64,000 nt of DNA, taken from contig JAUZOE010000018.1 in the NCBI GenBank assembly GCA_030706605.1, positions 1 through 64,000 of the forward strand, given 5' to 3'. The position numbers and the translations under genes were made by a program. Shown piece after piece: positions 10,217-29,603 of this stretch (position 1 is the first letter of the stretch; each line of letters opens with the position of its first letter). This DNA comes from Bacteroidota bacterium. Its GTDB lineage: Bacteria; Bacteroidota; Bacteroidia; Chitinophagales; Chitinophagaceae. The notes under the pieces were generated by a model that was not told the DNA's origin, did no database searches, and was given only the letters and a program-made list of their open reading frames with translations.

Positions 10217-11194
10217 TTAATTAAACTTATATATTAATCCTGGTTCAAAATGACCGTAATAATAATTCAGGTTAAAAGTGACGGTATTCTTTTTTAGTTT
10301 GGCGTCTTTCAATTTCGAATATCGGTGGTAGTTATTAACAACTTCTCTGCCTGTTAAAATTCCTAATGCGGCACCTACCAGCACATCAGTTGCCCAGTGT
10401 TTATTTTCTGATATTCTGCTCAGCCCTATCATGGTTGCAGCGCTGTAGGCAATTATGGGCACAATGGGTTTGTCCCTGTATTCCATTGCAAAAACGGTAG
10501 CTGCGGCAAATGAAACCGTTGTGTGCCCGGAGGGGAAAGAACTATTAATTTTTTTAACGACGGAGGTGTTTGCTGTTTTTGAAAAAGGCCCTAAAAATTT
10601 AGGTTCCGCCTCAGTTCCTGCCGTATAATATGAAGGCCTGGTACGGCCCGATAGAAATTCAGTAACACCTCCTACTGCCGCCCCTGCTATATAAGCTTGT
10701 GTGGCAAGTAAAGTAGCTGTCTGCATTTTTTTATTGTTAAATATAAAACCATAGGCGCCAAAAGCGGCAAGCGTATAGCCTTCATAGGCGCCACCGAAGT
10801 CAGTAATGTACTTACTGACATTTACCAAACCAGGATGATTACCCCGAAGCTTTAGAGCTCCCTTTTGTATGGGCTCATCTGCAAATGACAAAGCACCTGT
10901 TACCAAAGCAAACTTCCCCAGGTTACCCCAATCTTTTCCTGTCGTGTGAAATGGTTTAGTAAAAGATTGCTTGATATCGCTACCTAATAAAATAAAATAG
11001 CTTTTAAAATTTATCTGTGTATTGTAATTATAAGCTTTCGGAGCAATATTATTTGTCTGCCCGCCTGCGCTATCAGTCTTAAAACTTAAACTGTCCAGTT
11101 TACTAATAAGTGAATCGGATTGTTGAGATAGAGTGACAGAAGGAAGTGATGCAATAAAAAAAAATAATAACCGAAATTTGAATTTCATTATCAC
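10217..11194 (-). CDS. PAP2-family phosphatase
   Basis: A 325-residue protein with a signal peptide and a C-terminal type 2 phosphatidic acid phosphatase domain. The three PAP2 signatures are visible: SGRTRPSYYTAG (C1), SFPSGHTTVSFA (C2) and SRISENKHWATD (C3, with the catalytic His). It likely dephosphorylates lipid phosphates or undecaprenyl pyrophosphate at the membrane. Start could be Met1 or Met3 (11188). The C-terminus ends in a beta-like stretch (YYYGHFEPGLIYKFN), so an outer-membrane location is possible. Confidence 0.88.
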   Translation of the reverse strand: MIMKFKFRLLFFFIASLPSVTLSQQSDSLISKLDSLSFKTDSAGGQTNNIAPKAYNYNTQINFKSYFILLGSDIKQSFTKPFHTTGKDWGNLGKFALVTGALSFADEPIQKGALKLRGNHPGLVNVSKYITDFGGAYEGYTLAAFGAYGFIFNNKKMQTATLLATQAYIAGAAVGGVTEFLSGRTRPSYYTAGTEAEPKFLGPFSKTANTSVVKKINSSFPSGHTTVSFAAATVFAMEYRDKPIVPIIAYSAATMIGLSRISENKHWATDVLVGAALGILTGREVVNNYHRYSKLKDAKLKKNTVTFNLNYYYGHFEPGLIYKFN

Positions 11195-11929: not shown

Positions 11930-11983
11930 GAAAGAAGTAAATTGAAAATCAATGCAGGTACATTAATTTTACCAAAAAAATCT

Positions 11984-12574
11984 ATGCAGGACGATTTATT
12001 GATACAGGTATCCAGTGCTATCAGGGAGCTACGCAAACAAAAAAATATTACTATACAGGAACTGGCTGACAAAGCCAATGTGAGTAAAGGATTGATTTCG
12101 CAGGTTGAAAATAACCGCACCGTGCCATCGCTACCAGTATTTATGAATATAGTGAAATCACTTGGCATGGACCTGACTGATTTTTTTAAAGATATCCCTA
12201 CTGGTAATAATGGCCAAAAGGTTATTATAAAACGTGCTCAAGACTATCAGCATTTTGAAAAAGAACACGCAAAAGGATTTAATTACAAGCGGATTCTTAC
12301 CTGCACCGTTAATGACCATCCGGTTGATATTGTTTTGCTGGAATTAAAAAAAGGCGCTAAACGAAATAAGTCTGTAAAAACGGATGCTTTCGAATATAAA
12401 TACATCATTCGTGGAAAAATCGAACATCTTATAGATAATGAGACATACATTTTAGAAGAAGGCGATTCTATTTTCTTTGATGGGCGAATGGGACATAACC
12501 CATCCAATGTTGGAGAAGATGATGCGCTTCTTTTAGTGGTTTATTTTTTTAATACCAACGACCGAAAAGTATAA
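11984..12574 (+). CDS. XRE-family transcriptional regulator with C-terminal cupin sensor
   Basis: A 196-residue cytoplasmic regulator. Residues about 8-62 form a Cro/C1-type helix-turn-helix (TIQELADKANVSKGLISQVE). Residues about 110-190 form a cupin (EYKYIIRGKIEHLI, LEEGDSIFFDG, HNPSNVGEDD), likely the ligand-sensing part. The ATG at 11984 is preferred to the TTG at 11942 because the HTH then starts at the family's normal distance. Similar HTH-cupin proteins control local catabolic genes. Its position just upstream of, and co-directional with, the SusCD-phosphonate genes makes it their probable regulator (inference). Confidence 0.88.
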   Translation: MQDDLLIQVSSAIRELRKQKNITIQELADKANVSKGLISQVENNRTVPSLPVFMNIVKSLGMDLTDFFKDIPTGNNGQKVIIKRAQDYQHFEKEHAKGFNYKRILTCTVNDHPVDIVLLELKKGAKRNKSVKTDAFEYKYIIRGKIEHLIDNETYILEEGDSIFFDGRMGHNPSNVGEDDALLLVVYFFNTNDRKV

Positions 12575-12751
12575 TTTCCAATTCTTGCCTCCCTCGATTT
12601 CCTTTCTATAGAAATACTCATTGTTTACAAATGCTAAAGTATTTCAAGTTGCAAAAAAAGCAACCGAAGTCAATACGATCCCTCGTTAGCACTGAATTCA
12701 TGGACTTCTAGTATCAAATTCTACGCAATCGTTTGTGTAAAATTATTGTTA

Positions 12752-12786
12752 TTTGTGAAATAATTAAGAAATTTATTTTAAGTTTG
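12752..12786 (+). promoter_or_regulatory. Bacteroidota-type promoter for the susC-like gene
   Basis: TTTG at 12752-12755 and TAAGTTTG at 12779-12786 match the Bacteroidota -33 TTTG and -7 TAnnTTTG boxes, with 23 bases between. Transcription would begin about 60 bases before the SusC start at 12856. Based on pattern only. Confidence 0.45.
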
Positions 12787-12855
12787 CTTTAACATTAATT
12801 TAGTCTACCTAAACAACATTCATTATTAACTCTCATACCTAAAACTTAACTATTT

Positions 12856-15800
12856 ATGAAGTCTACTATTCATTATGTGCCCTCCGCCATCCTGACTTTT
12901 CTGTTTGTAGTATTTGGGGTATTTTCCGCTTTGGCCCAATCTAATACAATCCAGGGAAAGGTTATTGATGCAAGTACTAAGTCTCCCCTGGCCGGAGTAA
13001 GTATTACTATAAAAAATTCCAATGTTGGAACAACTACTGATGCAAATGGAAATTTTTCTTTGAATGTCCCAAACAACAGTAGAATCGTTGCAACTTTTGT
13101 AGGTTATGATCCTGTTGAAATTAATTCTTCTCAAAGAAATATTACTATTCAACTTACTTCTTCTACACAACAACTGAATGAAGTGGTAGTAACGGCAACA
13201 GGTATTAAAAAAGAAGCCAAACGGTTAGGATATGCTATTCAGACAATCGACGCCGCCGGCTTAACAAAAGCCAGGGAAGCAAATCCAATGAACTCATTAA
13301 AGGGTAACGCTGCAGGTCTTGAGATTAATATCAATTCTGAAATAGGACACTCCCCTGATGTAATTATCCGTGGGGAAAACGGCTCTAACGATCGTCCCAT
13401 ATTTGTTGTAGATGGTGTGCCGATTAGCTCTGATACTTACAATATAAATCCTGATGACATAGAAACGTTCACAGTTCTGAAGGGACCTAATGCAGCGGCA
13501 TTATACGGATTCCAGGGAAAGAACGGTGCAATAATCATTACTACTAAAAAAGGCAGCAGGGATAAAAGGGGTTGGCAGGTAACCTTTAACTCGAGCACAC
13601 AAATTAATAAGGGGTTTATTGCTTTACCCAAATACAATGACCTATACGGACCGGGTGATAATGGTAAATACGCTTTCGGAGGCGGTGGTTCCAGCTCTGC
13701 GTCTTATTTTGGGAACGGGGCAGTTGGGGTTGGTATTAATGACTACGATTATGATGTATGGGGACCCCAATTTAGGGGACAATTATTGCCTCAATATGAT
13801 GGCGTTTATGATCCAACGCAAACTTACACAACAACCTTTGCCGATGGAAGTACTTACCAGGGCCACGTAGCACCTACGCCCTGGACAGCCAGGGGCAAGG
13901 ATAACCTGAAAAAATTTATCCAGGCAGGTCTTATTCAGTCTAACAGTGTTTCTGTTGGTTCGTCAACTGAAAAAACTGATTTCCGACTTTCTGTAGGAAA
14001 TACCTATCAAAAAGGAATTGTTCCAAACACCCGATTAAATAATGGAAACGTTACTATAAGCCTTGGTGAAAGGTTTACTAAAAAATTATCATTAACCTCT
14101 TACTTTAACTACAGCAGGCAATCTACACCTAATGTTCCTGATGTCAATTATGGTCCTAACAGTATTATCTACAACATGATTCTTTGGGGCGGAGCAGACT
14201 GGAATGTAGATGATCCTAATATACGCAATTACTGGCAACCGGGAAAGGTAGGCCTTCAACAAAATTATGAAGAGTATTACAGGTATAACAATCCATGGTT
14301 TATGTCGTATGAATGGTTAAGAGGCCATTACCAAAATAACGAATATGGCTACTTGTCCCTGAATTATAAGTTGAATGATAATATTGATTTTCAGTTCAGG
14401 CCCAGCATGACCGCATATGACATGTTCAATTCAGAAAAAATGCCTTATTCTGCAGACGTTTATGGCAGAGAACTTCACCAGGGTGATTACAGGGAAGATC
14501 GCAGAGCACTCTTTGAATCTAACATAGACGCACAAGTGAGGTATCATAAAGAAAACATCCTGGGATTTTTAGATGTGCAGGCTTTAGGTGGCGCAACTTC
14601 CAGAAATTTAAGTTTTAATTCTGATTTCACTTCTACTAATTATTTGAATACTCCGGGGATCTATTCTTTTTCTAATTCATTAGGCGCTTTAACAGGAACT
14701 AGCTTTCACTCAAGCATGTTGGTATTAAGCGCTTATTATTCTGTGGATCTTGGTTATAAATCTTATATCACCGCAAACGTAACAGGTCGCGTTGATAAAT
14801 CATCGGCCTTGCCCACGAACACAAATAGTTATTACTACCCATCATTCAACCTGGCAACGGTGGTTTCAGAATATGTACACTTACCAAAAGTAATATCATT
14901 TCTGAAACTAAGAGGGTCTTATGCTCAGAGCAAAGATGGCGGCACCTCTCCTCTCTTTTCTCCAAGCGTACAGGGTACTCCTTCAAGTCGCTATGGCTAT
15001 ACATGGAATTCCCCTTATGGTGGACCTGCTTACCAGTTTTCTCAAACCTATTCTTTGACCCCAACATATAATGGTTCAAACAGTGCAAGATACAGTGACC
15101 AAACCGTTAGTCCTACTATCTATACTGCTGACAGAAAAGCTACTGAATTCGGGGCAGATATCCGTTTCTTTAATAATAAATTGGCACTTGACGTAACCCA
15201 CTACCATTACAAAAATACAGGTATAGTGAACCAGGGAACTTCGGCCGCCTCAGGATACTCTTCATACCTTACTAACGGTAACGTATATACTAATGATGGA
15301 TGGGAAGCTGTATTAAGTGCACGCGCTATTTCCCATCCTGATGGATTTAGCTGGAATGTTACTGCTAATTTTTCTACATATGTCAGAAAATGGGTGAATA
15401 ATGCTAACCCCAATAAATATGAATTTAATGGCAAGAGAGTTGATCTTGTATACGGGAATGCTTTTGTAAGAACTCCCGATGGAAAGATGGTTATTGATGC
15501 TGCCTCAGGTGTATATACACGTTTTTCCGACTTAGGCGTTTCGGCACAAAAAGTTTTTGGACATGCCGATCCCAACTGGCAATGGGGACTTATTAATATG
15601 ATAAGCTATAAAAAGTTTTCCCTGCATTTTCAGTTTGACGGACTAGTTGGTGGCGTAATGGAAGATTATGTAAGAAAGAAAACACTGCAGGGAGGTCGCC
15701 ATATCGAATCGGCAACCGGCGCTTTTGGTGCTGCAAGGCCAAGTGACGAAGCTAATGTTGCTGCATATACAGGAAATGGAGTTAATTTAACAGGCGCTCC

Positions 15801-16170
15801 TATCATTCTTGACCCTATTACGGGGGTGATTACCAATTTTAAAGACCTGACTGAAACTCAGAATACCACTAAGAGCCAGGTTCAACCCTTTGTTACAAGA
15901 ATGTCATCTGTTCCTGATTTAGATGTAATTAAAAAGACCTATGCTAAATTAAGAGAAGTCACATTTACGTATAACCTTCCCGAAGGATTGTTTGGTGCCA
16001 GATCTTTCATCCGTGATGCGAGCGTATCAGTGGTTGGAAGAAACTTGTTGTACTTCTTCCCGAATCGCTATAAAGACCTGGACGTAGATCAATACACCCA
16101 GGACGGTGGCTCCGGATTACAGACACCTACAACCCGTAATTATGGTTTTAACATCAATCTTACTTTCTAA
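12856..16170 (+). CDS. SusC/RagA-type TonB-linked outer membrane transporter
   Basis: A 1104-residue SusC-family outer-membrane transporter. A signal peptide ends near FSALAQ. A CarboxypepD_reg-like domain lies at about residues 32-110. The plug, about 115-235, carries the SusC signature TVLKGPNAAALYGFQGKNGA. A long beta-barrel ends in Phe (NINLTF). SusC proteins import bulky ligands captured by a SusD lid lipoprotein, powered by TonB. The partner SusD gene follows 19 bases later. Downstream genes are phosphonate-catabolic rather than glycoside hydrolases, so the ligand is probably an aminophosphonate-bearing molecule (inference). Confidence 0.95.
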   Translation: MKSTIHYVPSAILTFLFVVFGVFSALAQSNTIQGKVIDASTKSPLAGVSITIKNSNVGTTTDANGNFSLNVPNNSRIVATFVGYDPVEINSSQRNITIQLTSSTQQLNEVVVTATGIKKEAKRLGYAIQTIDAAGLTKAREANPMNSLKGNAAGLEININSEIGHSPDVIIRGENGSNDRPIFVVDGVPISSDTYNINPDDIETFTVLKGPNAAALYGFQGKNGAIIITTKKGSRDKRGWQVTFNSSTQINKGFIALPKYNDLYGPGDNGKYAFGGGGSSSASYFGNGAVGVGINDYDYDVWGPQFRGQLLPQYDGVYDPTQTYTTTFADGSTYQGHVAPTPWTARGKDNLKKFIQAGLIQSNSVSVGSSTEKTDFRLSVGNTYQKGIVPNTRLNNGNVTISLGERFTKKLSLTSYFNYSRQSTPNVPDVNYGPNSIIYNMILWGGADWNVDDPNIRNYWQPGKVGLQQNYEEYYRYNNPWFMSYEWLRGHYQNNEYGYLSLNYKLNDNIDFQFRPSMTAYDMFNSEKMPYSADVYGRELHQGDYREDRRALFESNIDAQVRYHKENILGFLDVQALGGATSRNLSFNSDFTSTNYLNTPGIYSFSNSLGALTGTSFHSSMLVLSAYYSVDLGYKSYITANVTGRVDKSSALPTNTNSYYYPSFNLATVVSEYVHLPKVISFLKLRGSYAQSKDGGTSPLFSPSVQGTPSSRYGYTWNSPYGGPAYQFSQTYSLTPTYNGSNSARYSDQTVSPTIYTADRKATEFGADIRFFNNKLALDVTHYHYKNTGIVNQGTSAASGYSSYLTNGNVYTNDGWEAVLSARAISHPDGFSWNVTANFSTYVRKWVNNANPNKYEFNGKRVDLVYGNAFVRTPDGKMVIDAASGVYTRFSDLGVSAQKVFGHADPNWQWGLINMISYKKFSLHFQFDGLVGGVMEDYVRKKTLQGGRHIESATGAFGAARPSDEANVAAYTGNGVNLTGAPIILDPITGVITNFKDLTETQNTTKSQVQPFVTRMSSVPDLDVIKKTYAKLREVTFTYNLPEGLFGARSFIRDASVSVVGRNLLYFFPNRYKDLDVDQYTQDGGSGLQTPTTRNYGFNINLTF

Positions 16171-16189
16171 TCCTTTTAAGAAATAAATT

Positions 16190-17809
16190 ATGAAACAGTT
16201 TAAAAATATATTCTTCATCTTTTTAGGTGCCTCAATAATGATTTCCTGTAATAAAAAGATTGTGGAAAAGCAGGCTGATCCGAACAACCCTACAAGTGTT
16301 CCTCCCAATTTAATTTTAGAGACTATATTAACCGATATTGCCGGCACGGGAAGTGCGGGTAATTTGGGAGGTATTAACTCATGGGATAATGTGAGTACCT
16401 GGAACCAATACCATTGTCAGAATTATGATTATTACGGAAATAATATCTATTCCTGGGCTGGTGGTTCATTTGACCCATACCTGGTATTAAAAAATGTAGT
16501 TCAGATGGAAAAAGAAGCTACTACAAGAGGCGCAGACGCAGTAAACTCATTTGAAGCAGTAGGAAGATTTATCCGGGCTTACTATTATTATAACCTTACT
16601 TCCTTGTTTGGTGATGTACCTTTAGACGAAGCGCTTAAAGCCCCGGTCATCTCATCACCGTCCTACACTCCGCAGGAACAGGTGTTTAAATATGTGTTGA
16701 ATGAATTAGATACTGCTAATACGGAATTGAGGACATTAATTCAAAATAACGATAACGCATTATCATCTGCGCGGGATATATATTACGGGGGTGACCTTAC
16801 CAAATGGCAAAAACTGGTAAATTCATTTAAACTTAGGGTACTAATTAGTTTAAGTAACAAATCTTCAGATGCCGTACTTAATGTTCCTGCGCAGTTTTCA
16901 GCTATAATAGGCAATCCGGCCCAATATCCCATATTTGCTAGCAAGAATGATGATCTTGCATATGTTTACAATCCAGGGGACGCAAACACTTTCAGTACTT
17001 ATCCATTCAATCCAAGTAATTTTGGATCTATCGCCGCTCGTTTTAATATGGCGGCAACTTATGTTAGCGCATTGACAACTATAAGCGATCCCAGGGTATT
17101 CGCAACTTGTGAACCTGCTGGTGCCCTTTGGGGAAGTAATCCTAATCCATGTCAATTTAATTATTTCGTTGGAGCAAGCACCGGTGAGCCTGTTCAAAGT
17201 ATGTATGGCAATGCCGCCTCAGGATTATATTCATTTATTAACAGGAACAGGTATTATTCCAACTTTACCGGTGAGCCGGATGTTTTGGTAGGGTACAAAG
17301 AAATGCTTTTTAATATTGCTGAGGGTATTGAACGCGGCTGGGCTACAGGTAATGCAGAAACATTTTATAAATCTGGCATAACTGAATCAATGGCATTCTA
17401 TGGTATTGATGTTAGTCAAACCAATTTTACTGCTTACTTTCTTCCTCCGGGCGCTAATTCAGTCAGCCAGGTTGCACCCTATCCATATAGTTTTAATTTT
17501 TCAAATTATTACTCACAACCAGCAGTGCAACTCTCTTCAACTCCAGCTACGGCTATTAACCAGATAGTGATGCAGAAATACCTGGCCATGTTTGAAAATT
17601 CGGGTTATGAAGCCTATTATAACTGGCGCAGAACCGGGGTACCTGCTTTTCAAGGTGGAGCCGGCGTAGGCAACAATGGAGTAATTCCCTTGAGATGGGC
17701 ATATCCTGTTACGGAACAGAGCCAAAATGAAAAGAATTGGAGTGCTGCGGTCTCCGCCCAACAATTTTCTGCAGATGACCTTAATCAAAAGATGTGGCTT
17801 TTAAAATAA
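16190..17809 (+). CDS. SusD/RagB-family nutrient-binding outer membrane lipoprotein
   Basis: A 539-residue surface lipoprotein, with a lipoprotein signal and Cys20 (SIMISCNKK). Family phrases are DPNNPTSVPPNLILE near residue 30, FEAVGRFIRAYYYYNLTSLFGDVP around residues 120-145 (helical TPR-like core) and ENSGYEAYYNWRRTGVP near the C-terminus. It looks closest to the SusD-like_2 branch. It would form the ligand-capturing lid on the SusC channel encoded just upstream. A 322-base spacer with a strong hairpin separates it from phnA. Confidence 0.93.
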   Translation: MKQFKNIFFIFLGASIMISCNKKIVEKQADPNNPTSVPPNLILETILTDIAGTGSAGNLGGINSWDNVSTWNQYHCQNYDYYGNNIYSWAGGSFDPYLVLKNVVQMEKEATTRGADAVNSFEAVGRFIRAYYYYNLTSLFGDVPLDEALKAPVISSPSYTPQEQVFKYVLNELDTANTELRTLIQNNDNALSSARDIYYGGDLTKWQKLVNSFKLRVLISLSNKSSDAVLNVPAQFSAIIGNPAQYPIFASKNDDLAYVYNPGDANTFSTYPFNPSNFGSIAARFNMAATYVSALTTISDPRVFATCEPAGALWGSNPNPCQFNYFVGASTGEPVQSMYGNAASGLYSFINRNRYYSNFTGEPDVLVGYKEMLFNIAEGIERGWATGNAETFYKSGITESMAFYGIDVSQTNFTAYFLPPGANSVSQVAPYPYSFNFSNYYSQPAVQLSSTPATAINQIVMQKYLAMFENSGYEAYYNWRRTGVPAFQGGAGVGNNGVIPLRWAYPVTEQSQNEKNWSAAVSAQQFSADDLNQKMWLLK

Positions 17810-17851
17810 TTTATCACCTGATCCAGGTTTTTTAGGAGTAATTAAAAAAGA

Positions 17852-18030
17852 GGTTGGGATGAAAGGGTAAAAGAAGAACAGGTTCCTTTATCCAACCTTG
17901 AAAAATACAGGAATATCATGATAAACCATTTAGTCAAGAATTAAAAATAGAAGATGATTTCTTAAATATTGCTGGCAAAACATGGAATAATCAGCTAATC
18001 AAACAGGCTTTATTTCATGTTTATAAATAA
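17852..18030 (+). pseudogene. Possible frameshifted gene remnant
   Basis: Two overlapping stop-free frames in the spacer after the susD-like gene read like protein. One frame contains WDERVKEEQVPLSNLEKY (17855-17908). The next contains KIEDDFLNIAGKTWNNQLIK and runs to the TAA at 18028-18030. A single frameshift near 17905 would join them. No start codon or family is recognised. This may be the tail of a lost gene of the locus, or chance. Confidence 0.25.
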
Positions 18031-18065
18031 TCAAACAATAGTAACTGTATTGTTTGATTATTTAT
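18023..18065 (+). terminator. Strong AT-rich hairpin between susD-like gene and phnA
   Basis: Perfect 18-base inverted repeat (18023-18040 with 18048-18065) and a 7-base loop (gtaactg), followed by a run of seven T at 18071-18077. It looks like an intrinsic terminator or attenuator placed 66 bases before the phnA start. It could make catabolic-gene expression lower than, or separate from, susCD expression. Confidence 0.65.
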
Positions 18066-18131
18066 CAGCAATTTTTTTAACTTTTCCCGAAAGGTAATCT
18101 TCCAAACTTTCCTTAACCCATAAGAAATAAA

Positions 18132-19385
18132 ATGAACACAATTTCAACAAATGAATTTTCTGCAAACGGAAAAACCTATCATCCTTCATCCAAACCAATT
18201 GTAGCGATCTGCATTGATGGCTCGGCAGATGAATACCTCGATACTACCATGGCGCATGACCGAATGCCTAATTTAAAAAAGATGGCCGTAAAAGGCTATC
18301 GCGGCATGGTTCGCGGTGCGTTGCCTTCTTTTACCAATGTAAATAATTCTTCTATAGTTACGGGCGTTGCACCTGCTGTGCATGGCATTAGCGGTAATTT
18401 CTTTTATGATGTGGCCAAAGATGAGGAAGTGATGATGAATTCTTCTGAATATTTAAGGGCGGAAACAATATTAGCGGCAGCGGCAAATGCGGGAAGGAAA
18501 GTGGCTTTTGTTACAGCAAAGGAAAAATTAAGAGATATCCTTTCGTATAAAATGAAAGGCATTGCCATCTCGGCGGAAAAAGCTAACCAGGCAAAAACAG
18601 AAACGCATGGCATTGATAATGTGGAAGAAATAGTGGGGCATAAAACACCGGCAATTTATAGCGCCGATGCCAGCTTATTTGTTCTACGGGCAGGCGTGGC
18701 TTTTATTGAAAAAGGATTGGCCGATTTTCTTTATCTGTCGCTGACCGATTATATGCAGCACACGTATTCGCCGGAGGCCGAAGAATCCCTCGCTTTTTAT
18801 GCTGCTATTGATGCAGAGATTGGAAAACTATTAGCGCTGGGTGCTGTAGTTGGCGCTACTGCCGATCACGGTATGAATGCAAAGGTAAAATCCGATGGCA
18901 CTCCCAATGTATTGTTTATCGAAGACATGCTGGAAGAAAAATTTGGTGATAGTTTCAGGGTTATTTGTCCTATTACGGATCCTTATGTTAAACATCACGG
19001 AGCTTTAGGTTCTTATGTAGTGGTCCATGTAAATGATAAAACAAAGATCAACGAAATAAAAAACTGGCTGGCGCTACAGCCAGGCATTACCGAAGTATAT
19101 GATAAAGCCACTGCTGTTCGTGTATTGGAGCAGCCGGAAGACCGCACCGGCGATTTAGTAATTCTATCCGGAAGGGATGTAGTACTAGGTCGCCGCCCGC
19201 GGTATCACGATCTGTCTGCATTGGATGGAACCCTTCGTTCGCATGGAGGGCGTTATGAAGAAATGGTGCCGATGGTTATATCTCATCCTTTAAATGCAGT
19301 TTATAAAATGAAAGCTGCCGCCGACCCAAGGAATTTTGACATATTTGATTTTACGATAAATGGGACGAGGGGAAATAACGAATAA
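18132..19385 (+). CDS. phnA: Phosphonoacetate hydrolase
   Basis: A 417-residue alkaline-phosphatase-superfamily enzyme that splits phosphonoacetate into acetate and phosphate. Family features are AICIDGSADEYL (metal Asp29), ALPSFTNVNNSSIVTG (Thr68, the nucleophile position of characterised PhnA), APAVHGISGNFFYD, TADHGMN (Asp-His metal pair) and a C-terminal LRSHGGRYEEMVP (metal His). Length fits PhnA. It is cytoplasmic, with no signal peptide. It is the last step of the PhnW-PhnY-PhnA route, and all three genes are in this cluster. This is not the unrelated alkylphosphonate-operon protein once also named PhnA. Confidence 0.92.
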   Translation: MNTISTNEFSANGKTYHPSSKPIVAICIDGSADEYLDTTMAHDRMPNLKKMAVKGYRGMVRGALPSFTNVNNSSIVTGVAPAVHGISGNFFYDVAKDEEVMMNSSEYLRAETILAAAANAGRKVAFVTAKEKLRDILSYKMKGIAISAEKANQAKTETHGIDNVEEIVGHKTPAIYSADASLFVLRAGVAFIEKGLADFLYLSLTDYMQHTYSPEAEESLAFYAAIDAEIGKLLALGAVVGATADHGMNAKVKSDGTPNVLFIEDMLEEKFGDSFRVICPITDPYVKHHGALGSYVVVHVNDKTKINEIKNWLALQPGITEVYDKATAVRVLEQPEDRTGDLVILSGRDVVLGRRPRYHDLSALDGTLRSHGGRYEEMVPMVISHPLNAVYKMKAAADPRNFDIFDFTINGTRGNNE

Positions 19386-19520
19386 AAAATGATCAATAAA
19401 AAATGAAGAAGTTTGGAAAGACAGGATGCTATTATCTGTAAGATTGTATAATCTGAAAATATAGCGATCAGTAAACAAAAAAATATAAAATATTCTTAAA
19501 ATATTAAATGAATTAATCCT

Positions 19521-20987
19521 ATGGAAAATTCTGAAATCTTAACAGTGGAGGCACAAGGAAACGGCGTTGCTGTTATGAATCTTTCTAGTTATGTAGCAGG
19601 GGGAAAAATTAAATCCGATAAACTATTGGAAGTTCGCAGCCCTTACGATAATCGTTTAGTCGGCACCGTTACACAGGCTAATTCTTCACATGTTCAGCAA
19701 GCCATTGAAGCTGCATTGAAAAGTAAAACTCCCTTAACAAGATATGAACGCTACTCTATCCTGGAAAAAGCAAGAAATCTCTTTTTGAACCGTAAAGAAG
19801 AATTTGCCCAAATCATCAGCGCCGAATCGGGGTTGGCAATCAGGGAAGCCAGGTACGAGACTGGTCGGGCGCAGGATGTATTTCTTTTTGCAGCTATCGA
19901 AACTTTACATGATGATGGCGAGGTATTTTCATGCGATATTACCCCTCACGGTAAAGCAAGAAAAATATTTACGCTGCGCGAACCACTACCCCTTGCAGTT
20001 TGCATTACTCCATTCAATCACCCGCTTAACCAGGTAATTCATAAGATATTACCTGCCATTGCAGTGGGTACTCCGGTAATTTTAAAACCTTCGGAAAAAA
20101 CACCGCTTACAGCCATTAAACTGGTAGAATTATTATACGAAGCTGGCTTGCCGCATTATATGCTTAGTGTTTTGCTGGGACCTACCAACGAAATTGCAGA
20201 GCCACTGGTAAAAGATCCGCGCGTGTCCATAGTTTCTTTTACAGGAAGCGTTGCTGTAGGAAAACTTATTGCTACCGCCGCCGGATACAAAAAAGTAATA
20301 TTGGAATTGGGTGGCAACGACCCTTTGATAATAATGGAAGATGCTGATATGGATAAAGCCGTATTCCTTGCTGCAGAAGGCGCTTTTCGCAATAGCGGGC
20401 AGCGTTGTACTGCTGTAAAAAGAATTTTAGTCCACGAAAAAATAAAGGATGAATTCATTAAAAAATTTGTAGAGAAGGCCAAAGAATATATATGCGGTGA
20501 CCCATCAGATCCGAAAACTATGGTGGGAACTGTAATAGATGAACCCGCTGCCGAATACCTGGAAAATGTGGTAAAAAAATCTGTGGAAAAGGGAGCAAAA
20601 GTAATTCTTGGCGGTAAACGTAAAGGAGCTTTAATGGAATCGACAGTGATAATAGACGTTCCCCGCGATGCAGATATGGTTGTTCATGAATCCTTTGGCC
20701 CGTTGGCTCCCATTATGAGTTTCAAAGATATAGATGATGCAATTAAGTTAAGTAATTCCACAGCTTACGGCCTGTCATCAGGCATAGTTACCAATAATAT
20801 GGAATATGCTTTAAAGTTTGTAAAAGAATTAAATGTGGGAACCGTAAATATTAATGAAGTCCCTGGTTATCGTATTGAGAGATCTCCTTTCGGCGGTATT
20901 AAAGATTCCGGTTTGGGCATAAAAGAAGGTGTGATAGAAGCAATGAAATGTTTTTCGTATGTGAAGACTTTTTCGCTCCCATGGTAG
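19521..20987 (+). CDS. phnY: Phosphonoacetaldehyde dehydrogenase
   Basis: A 488-residue NAD(P)-dependent aldehyde dehydrogenase. ALDH hallmarks are FNHPLNQVIHKILPAI, LKPSEKTPLTA, FTGSVAVGK, LELGGNDPLI (catalytic Glu), NSGQRCTAVKR (catalytic Cys) and a C-terminal RSPFGGIKDSGLG. The family alone does not fix the substrate. Its place between phnA and phnW makes oxidation of phosphonoacetaldehyde to phosphonoacetate the clear choice. The gap of 135 bases after phnA holds no terminator that I can see. Confidence 0.88.
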   Translation: MENSEILTVEAQGNGVAVMNLSSYVAGGKIKSDKLLEVRSPYDNRLVGTVTQANSSHVQQAIEAALKSKTPLTRYERYSILEKARNLFLNRKEEFAQIISAESGLAIREARYETGRAQDVFLFAAIETLHDDGEVFSCDITPHGKARKIFTLREPLPLAVCITPFNHPLNQVIHKILPAIAVGTPVILKPSEKTPLTAIKLVELLYEAGLPHYMLSVLLGPTNEIAEPLVKDPRVSIVSFTGSVAVGKLIATAAGYKKVILELGGNDPLIIMEDADMDKAVFLAAEGAFRNSGQRCTAVKRILVHEKIKDEFIKKFVEKAKEYICGDPSDPKTMVGTVIDEPAAEYLENVVKKSVEKGAKVILGGKRKGALMESTVIIDVPRDADMVVHESFGPLAPIMSFKDIDDAIKLSNSTAYGLSSGIVTNNMEYALKFVKELNVGTVNINEVPGYRIERSPFGGIKDSGLGIKEGVIEAMKCFSYVKTFSLPW

Positions 20988-21074
20988 AAGAAATAATGGG
21001 CAATCTGTAATCGGGTAATGAGGAATCCTATTTTAATTTTTGAACTTAATAATTCGCCATTCAAGCTATTCACA

Positions 21075-22157
21075 ATGAAAATTAAATTCCTTTTATTTTT
21101 CTCTCTCATTTGGGGCAGTAGCTATGCACAGCAACACAAAACAAAAAAAGAAATCATTGTTTTAATGGATGGCTATCGGTGGCAGGAACTTTTCCGTGGC
21201 GCCGATTCAGCTTTGTTATTTAGCAAAAAATATAATTCACAGGATTCAACGTGGCGGGTACAAAAGTATTGGGCAGCAGATGAAAAAACCCGCAGAGAAA
21301 AACTAATGCCTTTTGTATGGAATCATATTGTAAAAGAGGGACAGATTTATGGTAATCGTGATTTGGGAAATTTCGTAAACGTAAAAAACAAATATTGGTT
21401 TTCTGAACCTGGCCGCAGCGAAACATTTTGTGGTTATTATGATCCGATGATTAACTCAAACGATAAGATTAATAATCCCAACGGAAATGTTTTGGAATTT
21501 ATTAATATGCAAAAAGGATATAAAGGTAAAGTAGTAACATTCTCTTCGTGGGATGCAGTAGCATGGATACTGAATAGGGAAAGAAATGGGATGTTGATTA
21601 ATATTTATGGAGAGGATGTGAAAGGGCCAAACCTTACTCCGTTGCAAAAAGAGGCGAATGCCATGCAACATTATGAGGCGGATATTTTTGGGCAGGGAGA
21701 GCGGCCCGATGCCAATACTTTTTCTTTGGCAAATGCTTATATAAAGGCCAGCGATCCAAATGTGGTCTATATTGATTTTGGAGACACCGATGAATTTGGC
21801 CATGAAGGCAGGTATGATATGTACTTAGACAATGCGCATAAAATAGATGCCATGATAAGAGATCTCTGGAATTACCTGCAGCAGAATCCTTTCTATAAAA
21901 ATCAAACAACTTTAATGATATTTCCGGATCATGGCCGGGGTAATGGTGATGAATGGACGAGTCATGGTTCCAAAATAGCACATTCTAATGAAACGTATTT
22001 GATGGTATTAGGTCCGGATACGCCTGCCTTGGGAGAGGTGAAAACACAAGAACAAATTTACCAGGATCAAATTGCACAAACCATTGCAAACCTTTTGGGT
22101 TTTCATTTTACTGCAAATCATCCTGTGGCTGCATCAGTTAAAAATACGATGAAATAG
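21075..22157 (+). CDS. Secreted alkaline-phosphatase-superfamily protein
   Basis: A 360-residue protein of the alkaline phosphatase/sulfatase superfamily, with a signal peptide (MKIKFLLFFSLIWGSSYAQ). The ATG at 21075 is chosen over 21018 because it puts the signal at the N-terminus. Putative metal ligands are VLMDGYRWQE (Asp), FGDTDEFGHEGR (Asp, His) and FPDHGRGNGDEW (Asp, His), plus a late SHGSKIAHSNE. The nucleophile may lie in RSETFCGYYDP. Being exported and within the phn cluster, it may release phosphonate headgroups from a larger ester in the periplasm (inference). It follows phnY by 87 bases. Confidence 0.8.
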   Translation: MKIKFLLFFSLIWGSSYAQQHKTKKEIIVLMDGYRWQELFRGADSALLFSKKYNSQDSTWRVQKYWAADEKTRREKLMPFVWNHIVKEGQIYGNRDLGNFVNVKNKYWFSEPGRSETFCGYYDPMINSNDKINNPNGNVLEFINMQKGYKGKVVTFSSWDAVAWILNRERNGMLINIYGEDVKGPNLTPLQKEANAMQHYEADIFGQGERPDANTFSLANAYIKASDPNVVYIDFGDTDEFGHEGRYDMYLDNAHKIDAMIRDLWNYLQQNPFYKNQTTLMIFPDHGRGNGDEWTSHGSKIAHSNETYLMVLGPDTPALGEVKTQEQIYQDQIAQTIANLLGFHFTANHPVAASVKNTMK

Positions 22158-22291
22158 GGTTTAAGGTGTTGGATTAACCTGTCTGTAAATAACTCTGCCT
22201 AAAAGCCATGCAAGCTTTTAACGCAGATTCTTATTTTCTTATTTCAATTTATTGCCGGGGATAGGCTTTATTTTAAAATAAAAATGTCGCA

Positions 22292-23527
22292 ATGGAAATT
22301 AAAAAATTGGGAAAAGCAGATGTGGTAGTAATTGGTGGAGGCATCTTTGGTTGCGCCATTGCTTATTATTATACAAAAAATAATCCCGGTAAGAAAATAA
22401 TCGTGCTGGAAAGAAATGAATTGTGTAATTCAGCGACCAGTCGGGCAGCGGCATTGATGACGATTGTGCGTTCCAAACGATCGTATATTCCTTTATCGCT
22501 TGAAACTTATAAGGCGGTGGCTGATATGGAGAAGCAGTTAGGTGAATCATTGGATATGAGAACAGTAGGCATGCTTCATGTAGCAGCAAGTGATGCCAGG
22601 ATGAAAGACCTTGAAGAATTAATGGAGATTGCGAAAGAATTTAAACAACCGGCTCATTATATTTCTAATGAGAAAGCTCATAGAATGTGCCCATGGTTAA
22701 AAACAGATGAAGCAATAAAGATTGGATTCATTCCCAATGAAGCATATTGTGATCCTTATCTTTTAGGAACTTTTTATGCACGCTGTGCCAAAATGCAGGG
22801 TGCCGATATAAGGCAGGGAGTAGAAGTGAAAGAGCTGATCATGGAGGAGAATAACGCAATAGGGGTAAATACAGTAAGCGGAAATATCTATGCAGATAAA
22901 GTAATAATTGCTTCAGGGGCATGGGCGCCCATCTTAGCAGCACAGGCGGGTATTGGTCTGCCTATGGCCCCAGTACGAAGCCAGTATTGGATTACCGAAA
23001 AGTCGGGTATTTTTCCCGTCGATTCTCCAATGGTTTTGCTTCCGGATGCCCAGGCATATGCAAGGCCAGAAGGAGGGAGCCTTTTATTCGGAATTCGCGA
23101 ATCAAATTCTTTCAGCGTATCGCCAAAAGATATCCCTTCAGATATAAGCCATTTTTCTTTTAGCCCCGACCGTGGTGCGGCCGATCTGAGCGAAGTAATT
23201 GATCAATTAGCCCGCTTTTTTCCTAAGGTTTATGATATTGGGTTGAAATATTATATAGCAGGATTTTCGGGTTATACTCCCGACGGCAACTTGTCTATGG
23301 GTATAGTGCCGGGAATAACTAATTTGTTATTCGCCACAGGATGTGTCGGCGCAGGAATATCTGTGTCAGGCGGTGTGGGGCGTGCGTTTGCAGAGATGGC
23401 TGAAGGCAGGCATAATCCTTTTGATTTTTCTGATTTCGATATTCAACGTTATGGGAAAATTGATCCCTTTGGCAATGAATGGCTACAAAAATGCGCATAT
23501 GCAAGATCAAAGAAAGTGAGTGGGTAG
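22292..23527 (+). CDS. FAD-dependent oxidoreductase (DAO family), probable aminophosphonate oxidase
   Basis: A 411-residue flavoprotein of the D-amino acid oxidase/glycine oxidase fold. The Rossmann motif VVVIGGGIFGCAIAYYYTK is at residues about 10-28, followed by an Arg/Ser-rich FAD loop (SATSRAAALMTIVRS) and a C-terminal ATGCVGAGISVSGGVGRAFA. It is cytoplasmic. DAO-type oxidoreductases recur in 2-aminoethylphosphonate clusters, where members act on N-methylated or free aminoethylphosphonate to give phosphonoacetaldehyde. That is the best guess here, feeding PhnY in parallel with PhnW. A sarcosine- or glycine-like substrate cannot be excluded. Confidence 0.8.
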   Translation: MEIKKLGKADVVVIGGGIFGCAIAYYYTKNNPGKKIIVLERNELCNSATSRAAALMTIVRSKRSYIPLSLETYKAVADMEKQLGESLDMRTVGMLHVAASDARMKDLEELMEIAKEFKQPAHYISNEKAHRMCPWLKTDEAIKIGFIPNEAYCDPYLLGTFYARCAKMQGADIRQGVEVKELIMEENNAIGVNTVSGNIYADKVIIASGAWAPILAAQAGIGLPMAPVRSQYWITEKSGIFPVDSPMVLLPDAQAYARPEGGSLLFGIRESNSFSVSPKDIPSDISHFSFSPDRGAADLSEVIDQLARFFPKVYDIGLKYYIAGFSGYTPDGNLSMGIVPGITNLLFATGCVGAGISVSGGVGRAFAEMAEGRHNPFDFSDFDIQRYGKIDPFGNEWLQKCAYARSKKVSG

Positions 23528-23581
23528 ATAGGCAATGGCGATTAAACAATAAGCCACTAAAAAAATTAAACCATCAAATAA

Positions 23582-24898
23582 ATGAGCTTTCTAACTAATC
23601 AACTCAAAACATCGAAGACTTTTTTTATCGCATGGTGCATGATTGCAGCGTTTGGAACCTATTTCTCTATGTATGCTTTTCGCAAGCCATTCAATAACGG
23701 AACATACAGCGGCTATTACCTTTGGGGGCTTGATTATAAAGTAATATTAATCATTTTCAAAGTTTTGGGGTATATGCTTTCAAAGTTCATAGGTATCAAG
23801 ATTATTTCAGAACTAAAACCATCACAAAGAATAAAATTAGTTATCAGCCTTATTGTTTTTTCATTAATATCTTTATTCCTTTTTGGCCTCGTACCTTATC
23901 CATATAATTTTATTTGTATGTTCTTTAGCTCGTTACCACTCGGTATGGTATGGGGCATTGTATTTAGTTTTTTAGAGGGCCGGCGATTAACCGAAATGCT
24001 CTCCTTTGGCTTGTGCTTCAGCCTTATCGTTGCTTCCGGTATTTTAAAAACTATTTATTTCGAGGTTCAGTCAGTTTTTCCAATGTCTGAATTCTGGATG
24101 CCTTTTGTTATCGGGTTGATTTTTTTGCCTGTTTTCTGTTTTTTTGTGTGGATGCTTTCAGTAATTCCGGCGCCTACAGAAGAAGATAAACTTGTTCGCA
24201 CAGAGCGTGTACCAATGACCCGTAAAGATAAAATGAAGGTGATTCGTGAATATGGTTTTGGGCTTGTATGTATTGTACTTACATATGCCATGCTAACGAT
24301 GCTACGCGATTTCAGGGATAATTTCTCTGTTGAAATTTGGACAGAAATTGATAAAGGATTTAGCGATTCTGTATTCTCTCAAACGGAACTTATTATTGGA
24401 GTAGTTGTATTGGCCATTATCAGTAGTATTTCATTGATACGAAATAACGTTAAAGGGTTCAGGGTTACTTTTCTCACCATGATCATCGGCGCTCTAATTA
24501 CGGGCCTTAGTACCTTATTATTCCATCTTCATATTTTGACACCATTTTATTGGATGCTCTTTATCGGCATGGGGATGTTTCTTGCTTATACTCCAGTACA
24601 AGTTGTGTTGTTTGAACGAATGTTTGGAGTGTTTAAAACAAAAGGCAATGCAGGATTTTTTATGTACATGTGCGATTCTATTGGTTATCTTGGCAGCGTA
24701 GGCTTGCTTTTGTATAAAGAATTTTATATGAAAAATATCAGTTGGGCAAATGTGATGATAAAATTCAGCTATCTTCTTACAGGTATATCTGTTTTACTAC
24801 TTATTATGAGTTTATTGTTTTTTAATCGTAAACTTCGAATAAAAAACACCGCTACAAAAAATTTAGAAAAATTTCAACTATTAAATCAATTAACATGA
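23582..24898 (+). CDS. DUF5690-family MFS-like transporter
   Basis: A 438-residue integral membrane protein with about 12 hydrophobic segments, of the DUF5690 branch of the major facilitator superfamily. Recognisable are GTYFSMYAFRKPFNNGTY near the N-terminus and LPLGMVWGIVFSFLEGRR at about 120. The stop overlaps the phnW start in an ATGA junction, so the two are translated together. This placement suggests it carries 2-aminoethylphosphonate or a related headgroup across the inner membrane, in place of the ABC importers used by Proteobacteria (inference). Confidence 0.85.
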   Translation: MSFLTNQLKTSKTFFIAWCMIAAFGTYFSMYAFRKPFNNGTYSGYYLWGLDYKVILIIFKVLGYMLSKFIGIKIISELKPSQRIKLVISLIVFSLISLFLFGLVPYPYNFICMFFSSLPLGMVWGIVFSFLEGRRLTEMLSFGLCFSLIVASGILKTIYFEVQSVFPMSEFWMPFVIGLIFLPVFCFFVWMLSVIPAPTEEDKLVRTERVPMTRKDKMKVIREYGFGLVCIVLTYAMLTMLRDFRDNFSVEIWTEIDKGFSDSVFSQTELIIGVVVLAIISSISLIRNNVKGFRVTFLTMIIGALITGLSTLLFHLHILTPFYWMLFIGMGMFLAYTPVQVVLFERMFGVFKTKGNAGFFMYMCDSIGYLGSVGLLLYKEFYMKNISWANVMIKFSYLLTGISVLLLIMSLLFFNRKLRIKNTATKNLEKFQLLNQLT

Positions 24899-25983
24899 TT
24901 CAAAAAAAATTATTATTTACACCCGGCCCACTCACTACTTCAGTTACAGTAAAACAAACCATGATGCAGGATGTTGGTTCCAGGGATTATGAATTTATCC
25001 GGACGGTTAAAGAAATACAAAATGAATTATTAAAGCTTGCACATGTTTCCAGGGAAGATGGTTATGAAACCGTGCTGATGCAAGGTTCAGGCACATTTGG
25101 GATAGAAAGTGTCATCAGCAGTGTAATCGGAGATAATGATGTTTTGCTTATTTTGTCAAATGGTGCTTATGGCGAAAGAATAGCCAAAATGGCCATCATT
25201 CACAAACTCAATCATCATGTGGTTCGTTTTGAGGAAGATGAAATTGTAACAGCGGAGGCCACAGAAAATTTTTTAAAGGATCATCCGGAAGTAACGCATA
25301 TTGTCTGTATTCACAGTGAAACAACGACCGGGCTTTTCAATCCCATTACAGAGATCGGCGCTGTTTGCAAAAAGCATAATAAAGTTTTTATTGTAGATGC
25401 CATGAGCAGTTTTGGCGGTGTGGAGATGGATATGAAAAAAATGGGCATTGATTTTTTAGTTTCATCTTCTAACAAATGTATTGAAGGCGTTCCAGGGTTT
25501 GCATTTGTTATATGCAAAAAAACGGAATTGGAAAAAGCCAAGGGACAGGCAAGAAGTTTAAGCCTTGGGTTGTATGATCAATGGGCAGGTTTGGTAGCCA
25601 ATGGCCAATTCCGGTTTACGCCGCCAACATTGAGCATTATGGCTTTCCGCCAGGCGTTAAAAGAATTAGAAGAAGAAGGCGGTGTGCCGGCAAGAGAAAA
25701 ACGATATAAAGAAAATAAATCTGTTTTAGATAAAGGCATGTCAGAACTGGGATTTAAACAATACCTACGGCCTGAAATTCAGGGGCATATTATCACTTCT
25801 TTTCTTTATCCTGATGATCCTGATTTCAATTTTGAGCAATTTTATGATAAATTAAATAACCGGGGATTTGTAATTTATCCTGGGAAGCTTGGAAAAACAG
25901 ATGCATTTCGCATTGGCAATATCGGGCAGATATTTCCTGAAGATGTAAAAGCATTGATAGCTGTAATAAAAGATGTGATGTAA
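24895..25983 (+). CDS. phnW: 2-aminoethylphosphonate--pyruvate transaminase
   Basis: A 362-residue PLP-dependent class V aminotransferase that converts 2-aminoethylphosphonate and pyruvate into phosphonoacetaldehyde and alanine. Visible are LLFTPGPLTTS at the start, MQDVGSRDYEF, VLMQGSGTFGIES, IVDAMSSFGG (Asp168 to the PLP ring) and SSSNKCIEGVPGFAFV (PLP Lys194, the numbering of the characterised enzyme). Length agrees with PhnW. It is the last gene of the cluster and is coupled by a 4-base overlap to the transporter gene. There is no phnX, so the product must go through PhnY and PhnA. Confidence 0.94.
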   Translation: MIQKKLLFTPGPLTTSVTVKQTMMQDVGSRDYEFIRTVKEIQNELLKLAHVSREDGYETVLMQGSGTFGIESVISSVIGDNDVLLILSNGAYGERIAKMAIIHKLNHHVVRFEEDEIVTAEATENFLKDHPEVTHIVCIHSETTTGLFNPITEIGAVCKKHNKVFIVDAMSSFGGVEMDMKKMGIDFLVSSSNKCIEGVPGFAFVICKKTELEKAKGQARSLSLGLYDQWAGLVANGQFRFTPPTLSIMAFRQALKELEEEGGVPAREKRYKENKSVLDKGMSELGFKQYLRPEIQGHIITSFLYPDDPDFNFEQFYDKLNNRGFVIYPGKLGKTDAFRIGNIGQIFPEDVKALIAVIKDVM

Positions 25984-29051: not shown

Positions 29052-29603
29052 TCAGGACTTACCCCTGAAATTAAATCCCTTTTCTTTTAAAGCTTTTTGT
29101 AATACCGGTATAGCAGTTTTTCCAATTCCGTGAAATTGGAGAATCTCCGCTTCAGTATACTTAGCCATATCCTGCAATGTTTTGATACCATTATTCTGCA
29201 ATGCCTGCCTGGCCAGCGCCGAAAGCCCTGGAAGGAAATCTGTTTCTTTTTCATCCTGTTGCCTTACCCGGAATTTTACCATTCGTGCAATTAAATTCAA
29301 TGGCATTGCCTTATCCAGCGGAAACTGCACAGAACCCCTACCCTGTTTATATCTGGATAATTCTTTTGCAAATGCAATATGCCCTGAAGGAGTCGCATAA
29401 AAACCAATGTGGTTTTTATACCCGGCAAAATAAATAATTACCCGACCCTTGTACCTAAAAGCAGGCATGCCATAGCTGATGGTTTCCTCAGCGCCGGGTG
29501 CAGCTTTTTTAACAGTCAGGCGTACCTGCTCTAAAATCTTTTGAACATCTTCGGGGAACACGGCAATGTAAGCATCTATATTAGATGGTTTGACGGCTTT
29601 CAT
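29052..29603 (-). CDS. DUF1801 domain protein with C-terminal helix-hairpin-helix
   Basis: A 183-residue cytoplasmic protein. Residues about 10-115 form a DUF1801 (YdhG-like) domain, with AAPGAEETISYGMPAF and GFYATPSGHIAFAKE. Residues about 130-180 look like the helix-hairpin-helix of RNA polymerase alpha C-termini or DNA-repair proteins (LPGLSALARQALQNNGIKT, LQFHGIGKTAIPVLQKAL). The second part suggests nucleic acid binding, but the function of the whole is unknown. It ends 23 bases after the VOC protein gene, so the two probably share a transcript. Confidence 0.85.
   Translation of the reverse strand: MKAVKPSNIDAYIAVFPEDVQKILEQVRLTVKKAAPGAEETISYGMPAFRYKGRVIIYFAGYKNHIGFYATPSGHIAFAKELSRYKQGRGSVQFPLDKAMPLNLIARMVKFRVRQQDEKETDFLPGLSALARQALQNNGIKTLQDMAKYTEAEILQFHGIGKTAIPVLQKALKEKGFNFRGKS

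Follow-up and report, generated by a model that had tools for sequence, protein, structure and literature searches.

The 64,000-nucleotide window analysed here (positions 1 to 64,000 of the forward strand of JAUZOE010000018.1, assembly GCA_030706605.1; contig C10 of the 71 that make up a 4.27-Mb genome) comes from a Bacteroidota bacterium of the family Chitinophagaceae. Between positions 11984 and 25983, nine co-directional genes on the + strand place an outer-membrane SusC/SusD importer pair (SusCD), of a type that usually handles sugars, ahead of the enzymes of the hydrolytic PhnW–PhnY–PhnA route for 2-aminoethylphosphonate (AEP). SusCD very probably serves aminophosphonates, and we favour, as reasonably probable, the reading that the nine genes form an envelope-spanning aminophosphonate utilisation locus with a conjugate as its cargo. 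The swap of two different sets of enzymes that break the carbon–phosphorus (C–P) bond behind one importer type finds its best explanation in the delivery of aminophosphonates by this importer, and it makes an unrelated glycan unlikely.

The locus opens with an XRE-cupin protein (11984–12574; PF01381 and PF07883; ATG start, a TTG at 11942 being possible), relatives of which (57–67% identity) adjoin many PhnA loci. Next come the TonB-dependent outer-membrane transporter SusC (12856–16170; TIGR04056, 451.2 bits against a cut-off of 368.25) and, in tandem 19 bp downstream as in Sus-like systems, a SusD-like surface lipoprotein (16190–17809; PF12771, 215 bits; lipobox-like Cys20 as judged by eye). 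The phosphonoacetate hydrolase PhnA (18132–19385; TIGR02335, 489.8 bits, cut-off 407.55), the phosphonoacetaldehyde dehydrogenase PhnY (19521–20987; TIGR03250, 662.8 bits, cut-off 635.65) and the AEP:pyruvate transaminase PhnW (24895–25983; TIGR02326, 487 bits, cut-off 400.8) are clustered and all score above their curated cut-offs, which is the gene content of a PhnWYA hydrolytic AEP cluster; PhnA also matches the solved PhnA structure 1ei6 with E 1.9e-110. Between PhnY and PhnW lie AP2, an alkaline-phosphatase-superfamily protein (21075–22157; PF01676, 29.6 bits; PF01663, 26.8 bits), a PbfC-like FAD oxidoreductase (22292–23527; PF01266, FAD DAO) predicted to convert N-methyl-AEP to phosphonoacetaldehyde, and DUF5690 (23582–24898; PF18943, 499.3 bits), an inner-membrane protein with an MFS fold and a candidate importer. 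Within the set, neighbouring genes overlap by 4 bp at the closest and are at most 322 bp apart. The first-pass annotation had named these nine genes, and all were found in place on the + strand, with PhnA, PhnY, PhnW and SusC passing curated models; the gene families are thus established from sequence. Its start for the AP2 open reading frame, 21018, is probably to be moved to 21075, as Met20 is invariant in 11 aligned sequences.

Domain-model searches found no glycan-degrading enzymes or glycoside hydrolases among the nine locus proteins, so that we do not class the locus as a polysaccharide utilisation locus. The lack of phnX, C–P lyase genes and a phosphonate ABC importer that was noted earlier holds for the whole genome, in which the best PhnX match scores 46.5 bits against a cut-off of 220 and neither PhnJ (C–P lyase) nor the phosphonate-binding protein family PF12974 has a match. 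Synthesis of phosphonates by the organism itself was considered as their source and rejected, the best genome-wide PepM score being 76 bits against a cut-off of 319.55.

A second aminophosphonate set stands behind the same type of SusC. A search with the window SusC through 394 genomes of the family returned 107 matches in 98 genomes. The closest SusCs belong to two genus mates (85% and 82%), both of which lack PhnA, and PhnA above cut-off occurs in none of the nine other listed genomes of the genus. Behind their SusCD, the genus mates carry a phosphonate HD-domain oxygenase (Phn-HD), a PhnX-like hydrolase and a PbfD-type oxidase, a full order, for example in genus mate G045, being SusC–SusD–AP2–Phn-HD–PhnX-like–DUF5690–TIGR03364. 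Representatives score 219.3 bits for Phn-HD (cut-off 214.6) and 409.3 and 422 bits for TIGR03364 (cut-off 285.1); the PhnX-like representative, with 185.7 bits, lies below the cut-off of 218.9. In published accounts, PbfD1 carries the annotation TIGR03364, and an AEP route that needs no PhnW has been proposed for PbfD2 together with PhnX (PMC10590968); PhnZ-type HD enzymes cleave hydroxylated phosphonates (PMC10574752).

Among the 20 SusC matches of at least 65%, nine lie near Phn-HD and two near PhnA (the window and G361). Forty of the first 51 SusC-match loci were examined by BLAST, leaving out the window, the PhnA loci G361, G070, G272 and G223, and G252, G035, G301, G377, G112 and G122. 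A phosphonate catabolic gene is present in 29 of these 40 SusC-selected loci (Phn-HD in 26, PhnX-like in 21, TIGR03364 in 21), and the same 40 contain DUF5690 (22 loci), AP2 (21) and a PF04185-type protein (16). Conversely, Phn-HD was found in 100 of 384 family genomes (E up to 1e-30; above cut-off in 22 genomes), with a window-type SusC within 12 kb of 56 of the 100 genes, farther away on the same contig for two and on another contig for 16. By genome, 74 have both SusC and Phn-HD, 24 SusC only and 26 Phn-HD only, an odds ratio of 31 that is not corrected for kinship; SusC was tallied from 394 and Phn-HD from 384 genomes with overlap of the two draws assumed, and the SusC-only count may be too high. 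One window-type SusC (48%; G205:C749:2587-5784) has an in-frame TAA and is perhaps a decayed copy.

The window itself retains a fossil of this second set. In the 322-bp gap between SusD and PhnA, 39 bp after SusD, lie the final 30 codons of a Phn-HD gene (17849–17938, + strand), 80% identical over 30 residues to the C-terminus of the intact Phn-HD on contig C48 of the same genome (E 5.9e-16, 56.6 bits; the best of 200 shuffled gaps reaches 21.6 bits). The C48 protein is in turn 74% and 69% identical to the Phn-HDs in the SusCD runs of the two genus mates. On C48 (5500–16001) the intact Phn-HD is followed by a second DUF5690; upstream of it only about 500 bp remain before the end of the contig, beyond which a second SusCD perhaps stands.

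Phylogenetic trees likewise record a recombinant origin. The window SusC groups with rows from 14 SusC-selected and two PhnA loci, 16 rows in all (support 100); DUF5690 and AP2 of the window fall in sets of 17 rows (100/99) and eight rows (100/100), respectively, that come exclusively from PhnA loci. The PhnA label requires nine changes on the SusC tree. It appears that the resident SusCD, which serves the Phn-HD/PhnX-like/PbfD-type set in close relatives, was joined by a PhnA–PhnY–AP2–PbfC–DUF5690–PhnW cassette; a joint arrival of all six genes is suggested by the trees of AP2 and DUF5690, the sole two of the six placed on trees. The first-pass annotation had the gene set right and missed the Phn-HD 3' end, the other aminophosphonate partner set of SusCD and the recombinant nature of the locus. 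A different mixture is seen in G361 and G338 (L043 and L044), where AP2 and DUF5690 of the Phn-HD type are followed by PhnA–PhnY–PhnW–PbfC. Four Mucilaginibacter PhnA loci carry another SusC lineage, with a SusD of the PF07980 type in the one case tested, which indicates that SusCD was recruited at least twice.

The link between SusCD and the PhnWYA route that had been proposed for the window is borne out by its recurrence in two families, with named examples in Chitinophaga niastensis, Segetibacter koreensis, Limnovirga soli, Ilyomonas limi, Pedobacter nyackensis, P. panaciterrae and several Mucilaginibacter; it is therefore not peculiar to this strain. PhnA above cut-off is present in 31 of 394 family genomes and in eight of 395 genomes of a phylum sample, five of these outside the family. 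The loci compared comprise 30 from the family, five from the phylum sample, the best 80 of at least 568 relatives in named genomes and the window, 116 in total, of which 98 have a distinct PhnA. Fifty-four of the 65 loci from the Bacteroidota phylum have at least 8 kb upstream and were usable. SusC shares a same-strand run with PhnA (gaps below 1 kb) in 20 of these 54, and 26 have it anywhere in the locus; as selection was by PhnA similarity and the loci are related, 20/54 is not a population estimate. Among 33 PhnA loci outside the phylum none has SusC. As a control, 40 regions of 20 kb were drawn at random from 20 PhnA genomes; five contained SusC, with three pairs of regions overlapping and SusC recognised by a BLAST panel in the random regions and by clustering in the PhnA loci.

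These comparisons bear on the idea that an unrelated glycan or peptide is the substrate of SusCD and that its position next to the phn genes is accidental. SusC genes are indeed common, as the random regions illustrate; 11 SusCs in the window's own genome exceed the cut-off, and the nearest solved SusC structure to that of the window is BT_2264, which we take to be peptide-associated. The recurrence in 20 of 54 PhnA runs, set against the random regions, together with the other phosphonate set that follows this type of SusC in relatives and the Phn-HD remnant after SusD, nevertheless makes such a chance neighbourhood exceedingly improbable, and we reject it. We also dropped a single phosphonate-only SusC clade. 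It had seemed to unite 19 SusCs, all near PhnA, in a sample with just 16 SusCs from elsewhere (ten from the window's own genome and six from random regions), and a wider search and tree placed SusCs from many PhnA-less genomes within it.

A PhnA-like paralogue (153–199 bits against TIGR02335, 28–31% identical to the window PhnA) was seen at L062–L069 (G365, G386, G013, G382, G333, G127, G278 and G249). On contig C9 of G249 it lies near SusC, SusD, DUF5690 and Phn-HD and is perhaps part of a third C–P set.

The nature of the cargo is suggested by the accompanying genes. BLAST places a phosphodiesterase-type gene (AP2, PF04185, GDPD, phospholipase C, ENPP-like or calcineurin-like) in the locus for 18 of the 20 SusC-bearing PhnA runs and for 12 of the 34 others (p 0.00015). 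For DUF5690 the figures are 17 of 20 and nine of 34 (p 4.8e-05); in neither comparison are the loci independent. A fucosidase-type gene is present in five of 20 against none of 34 (BLAST); in four Mucilaginibacter loci (L090, L096, L099 and L101) an alpha-L-fucosidase family gene (PF01120, one tested) lies between SusCD and phnA. In some genomes window-type SusC has GDPD proteins beside it, or a phospholipase C specific for phosphocholine (727.8 bits against a cut-off of 580.25). The phosphodiesterase-type and fucosidase genes point to ester-linked headgroups or glycans, and the Mucilaginibacter fucosidase genes hint at a fucose-bearing phosphonoglycan. The larger phosphonate-bearing substrate proposed in the first-pass annotation fits these recurring genes, with the substrate itself staying a prediction. 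Phosphonolipids would be a fitting cargo, Phn-HD enzymes acting on hydroxylated compounds; a predatory bacterium is cited as having a sphingophosphonolipid whose headgroup is 1-hydroxy-2-aminoethylphosphonate (PMC4642753).

The same genes could mean that SusCD serves phosphodiesters generally, such as phospholipid headgroups and glycerophosphodiesters, with phosphonates just part of the diet. The PusCD system of Flavobacterium is a precedent (PMC8115612), and at five of the SusC-selected loci (L268, L271, L284, L297 and L300) a gene for phosphocholine phospholipase C, GDPD or a PF04185 protein occurs and a phosphonate gene does not. Given that 29 of the 40 SusC-selected loci carry a phosphonate gene and that the breakdown enzymes of the window belong to phosphonate-specific families, we consider such a general role quite improbable.

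In the mechanism that we infer for a conjugated aminophosphonate, SusD would capture and SusC import an AEP-bearing conjugate (a lipid, glycerol or sugar-type ester) through the outer membrane. In the periplasm, AEP or N-methyl-AEP would then be released by exported hydrolases, AP2 among them, and DUF5690 would move these over the inner membrane. In the cytoplasm, PhnW (from AEP) or the PbfC-like enzyme (from N-methyl-AEP) would produce phosphonoacetaldehyde, which PhnY would convert to phosphonoacetate and PhnA finally to phosphate and acetate. The XRE-cupin protein would act as the regulator of the locus.

The N-terminus of AP2 resembles a signal peptide as judged by eye. Residues Asp51, Asp258, His262, Asp304, His305 and His316 are invariant across 11 aligned sequences and are, we presume, those of the metal site. 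The structure model has a pLDDT of 72.8, falling below 50 in the nucleophile loop, and its fold matches are members of the alkaline phosphatase superfamily with modest TM scores of about 0.35–0.5. A comparison of the PbfC-like protein with 72,556 plasmid records gives the best match in Azospirillum sp. B510 (40.8%), where the matching gene lies beside phnW; no PbfB or PbfD was included in the comparison. PbfC, which converts N-methyl-AEP to phosphonoacetaldehyde, was characterised from this same organism (PMC10590968), the two being linked here by their source organism.

The model of DUF5690 (pLDDT 91.6) has top fold matches that all read as MFS transporters. The glucose-6-phosphate transporter SLC37A4 ranks first (E 1.3e-07, TM 0.65/0.73, 15% identity), with galactonate, melibiose, sialin and choline transporters close behind. 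DUF5690 is also found at four of the 33 PhnA loci outside the Bacteroidota phylum, which lack SusC, and this supports a phosphonate role of DUF5690 in its own right. These relatives (35–43%) are at L129, L141, L150 and L157, from Planctomycetia and Verrucomicrobia metagenome-assembled genomes, near PhnA and without SusCD. The term DUF5690 is absent from the literature searched, which was open-licence and without most subscription papers.

Several results weigh against the proposed locus function. No SusCD was found beside the five extra-family PhnA genes of the phylum sample in stretches of 10 to 20 kb, and 28 of the 54 usable loci have no SusC, which means that PhnA does not require it. Eleven of the 40 SusC-selected loci, some on short contigs, are without a phosphonate gene, 26 of the 100 Phn-HD genomes lack a window-type SusC, and 18 genomes have such a SusC and neither Phn-HD nor PhnA. 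No match to the Bacteroidota promoter pattern falls within the locus, and the whole window has two against 4.87 expected by chance, so that transcription units are not established. Position 134 of AP2, the presumed nucleophile, is Ser in the window and Asn or His in 27 of 34 AP2 proteins, and we are less sure that the cargo is conjugated rather than free, the substrate being predicted.

The doubtful catalysis of AP2 in relatives would agree with an import by SusCD of free small aminophosphonates (AEP, N-methyl-AEP and hydroxy-AEP) as a high-affinity outer-membrane route, with no ester involved and AP2 doing something else. All the cytoplasmic enzyme families act on free compounds, and in two of the 20 SusC-bearing PhnA runs no phosphodiesterase-type gene was found. 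The other 18 do have one, a locus would hardly need GDPD, phospholipase C or fucosidase genes if its cargo were free AEP, and porins commonly let small compounds like AEP through. We regard free cargo as unlikely, while giving it real weight, and retain conjugated aminophosphonates as the predicted cargo.

Beyond the locus, the gene after PhnW encodes a fatty acid hydroxylase family protein on the opposite strand. Upstream (10217–11194, − strand) lies a PAP2-family phosphatase with weak likeness (35% over 67 residues) to the PAP2 that ends some Phn-HD-type loci. A single protein at 29052–29603 (− strand) combines DUF1801 with a region that matches the C-terminal domain of RNA polymerase alpha.

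Several known systems share features with the locus. In PhnWYA clusters with PbfC or PbfD, PhnW, PhnY and PhnA likewise cluster with a PF01266 enzyme (PMC10590968, PMC12366243), but the clusters as described in the portions covered have no SusCD, AP2 or DUF5690; 'SusC' and 'Bacteroid' are absent from PMC10590968 and 'TonB' from PMC12366243. Flavobacterium PusCD likewise pairs a SusCD-like couple with phosphoesterase genes, for phosphorus (PMC8115612, PMC8812569), but is described for phosphate starvation and phosphodiesters, PMC8115612 containing 'phosphonate' twice and 'phnA' never. In Sus-like polysaccharide loci a SusC–SusD pair also heads a catabolic run, whereas the nine genes here include no glycoside hydrolase. 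Dedicated uptake of AEP-type compounds tied to phn genes is provided by AepXVW, AepP, AepSTU, PhnCDE and PhnSTUV, which are ABC transporters or facilitators and not an outer-membrane SusCD (PMC8316502, PMC10574752). SusCD for phosphorus and PhnWYA with PbfC are already known from these accounts. A SusCD tied to phosphonate catabolism, its spread and the exchange of cassettes were not found in the open-licence literature, covered in part, with most subscription papers and PMC11892949 (SusCD and aminoethylphosphonate) outside its coverage.

In the broadest reading, on which we are evenly divided, Bacteroidota have widespread phosphonate loci built like polysaccharide loci. A module of SusCD, phosphodiesterase and DUF5690 would take up intact pieces of phosphonolipids or phosphonoglycans and would be combined by cassette exchange with interchangeable C–P-breaking sets, either PhnW/PbfC–PhnY–PhnA or PbfD-type/PhnX-like/Phn-HD, the window being a natural swap with a fossil of the replaced set. 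Cassette exchange of this kind offers a way to infer the cargo of an importer from what its partner sets share. Phosphonate uptake as described so far, in the accounts covered, is of small free compounds and relies on ABC transporters or facilitators. A route through SusCD, if true, would explain how Bacteroidota gain access to phosphonates bound in lipids and surface glycans, and it gives a lead to the function of DUF5690 and of a large group of Chitinophagaceae SusCs (98 of 394 family genomes).

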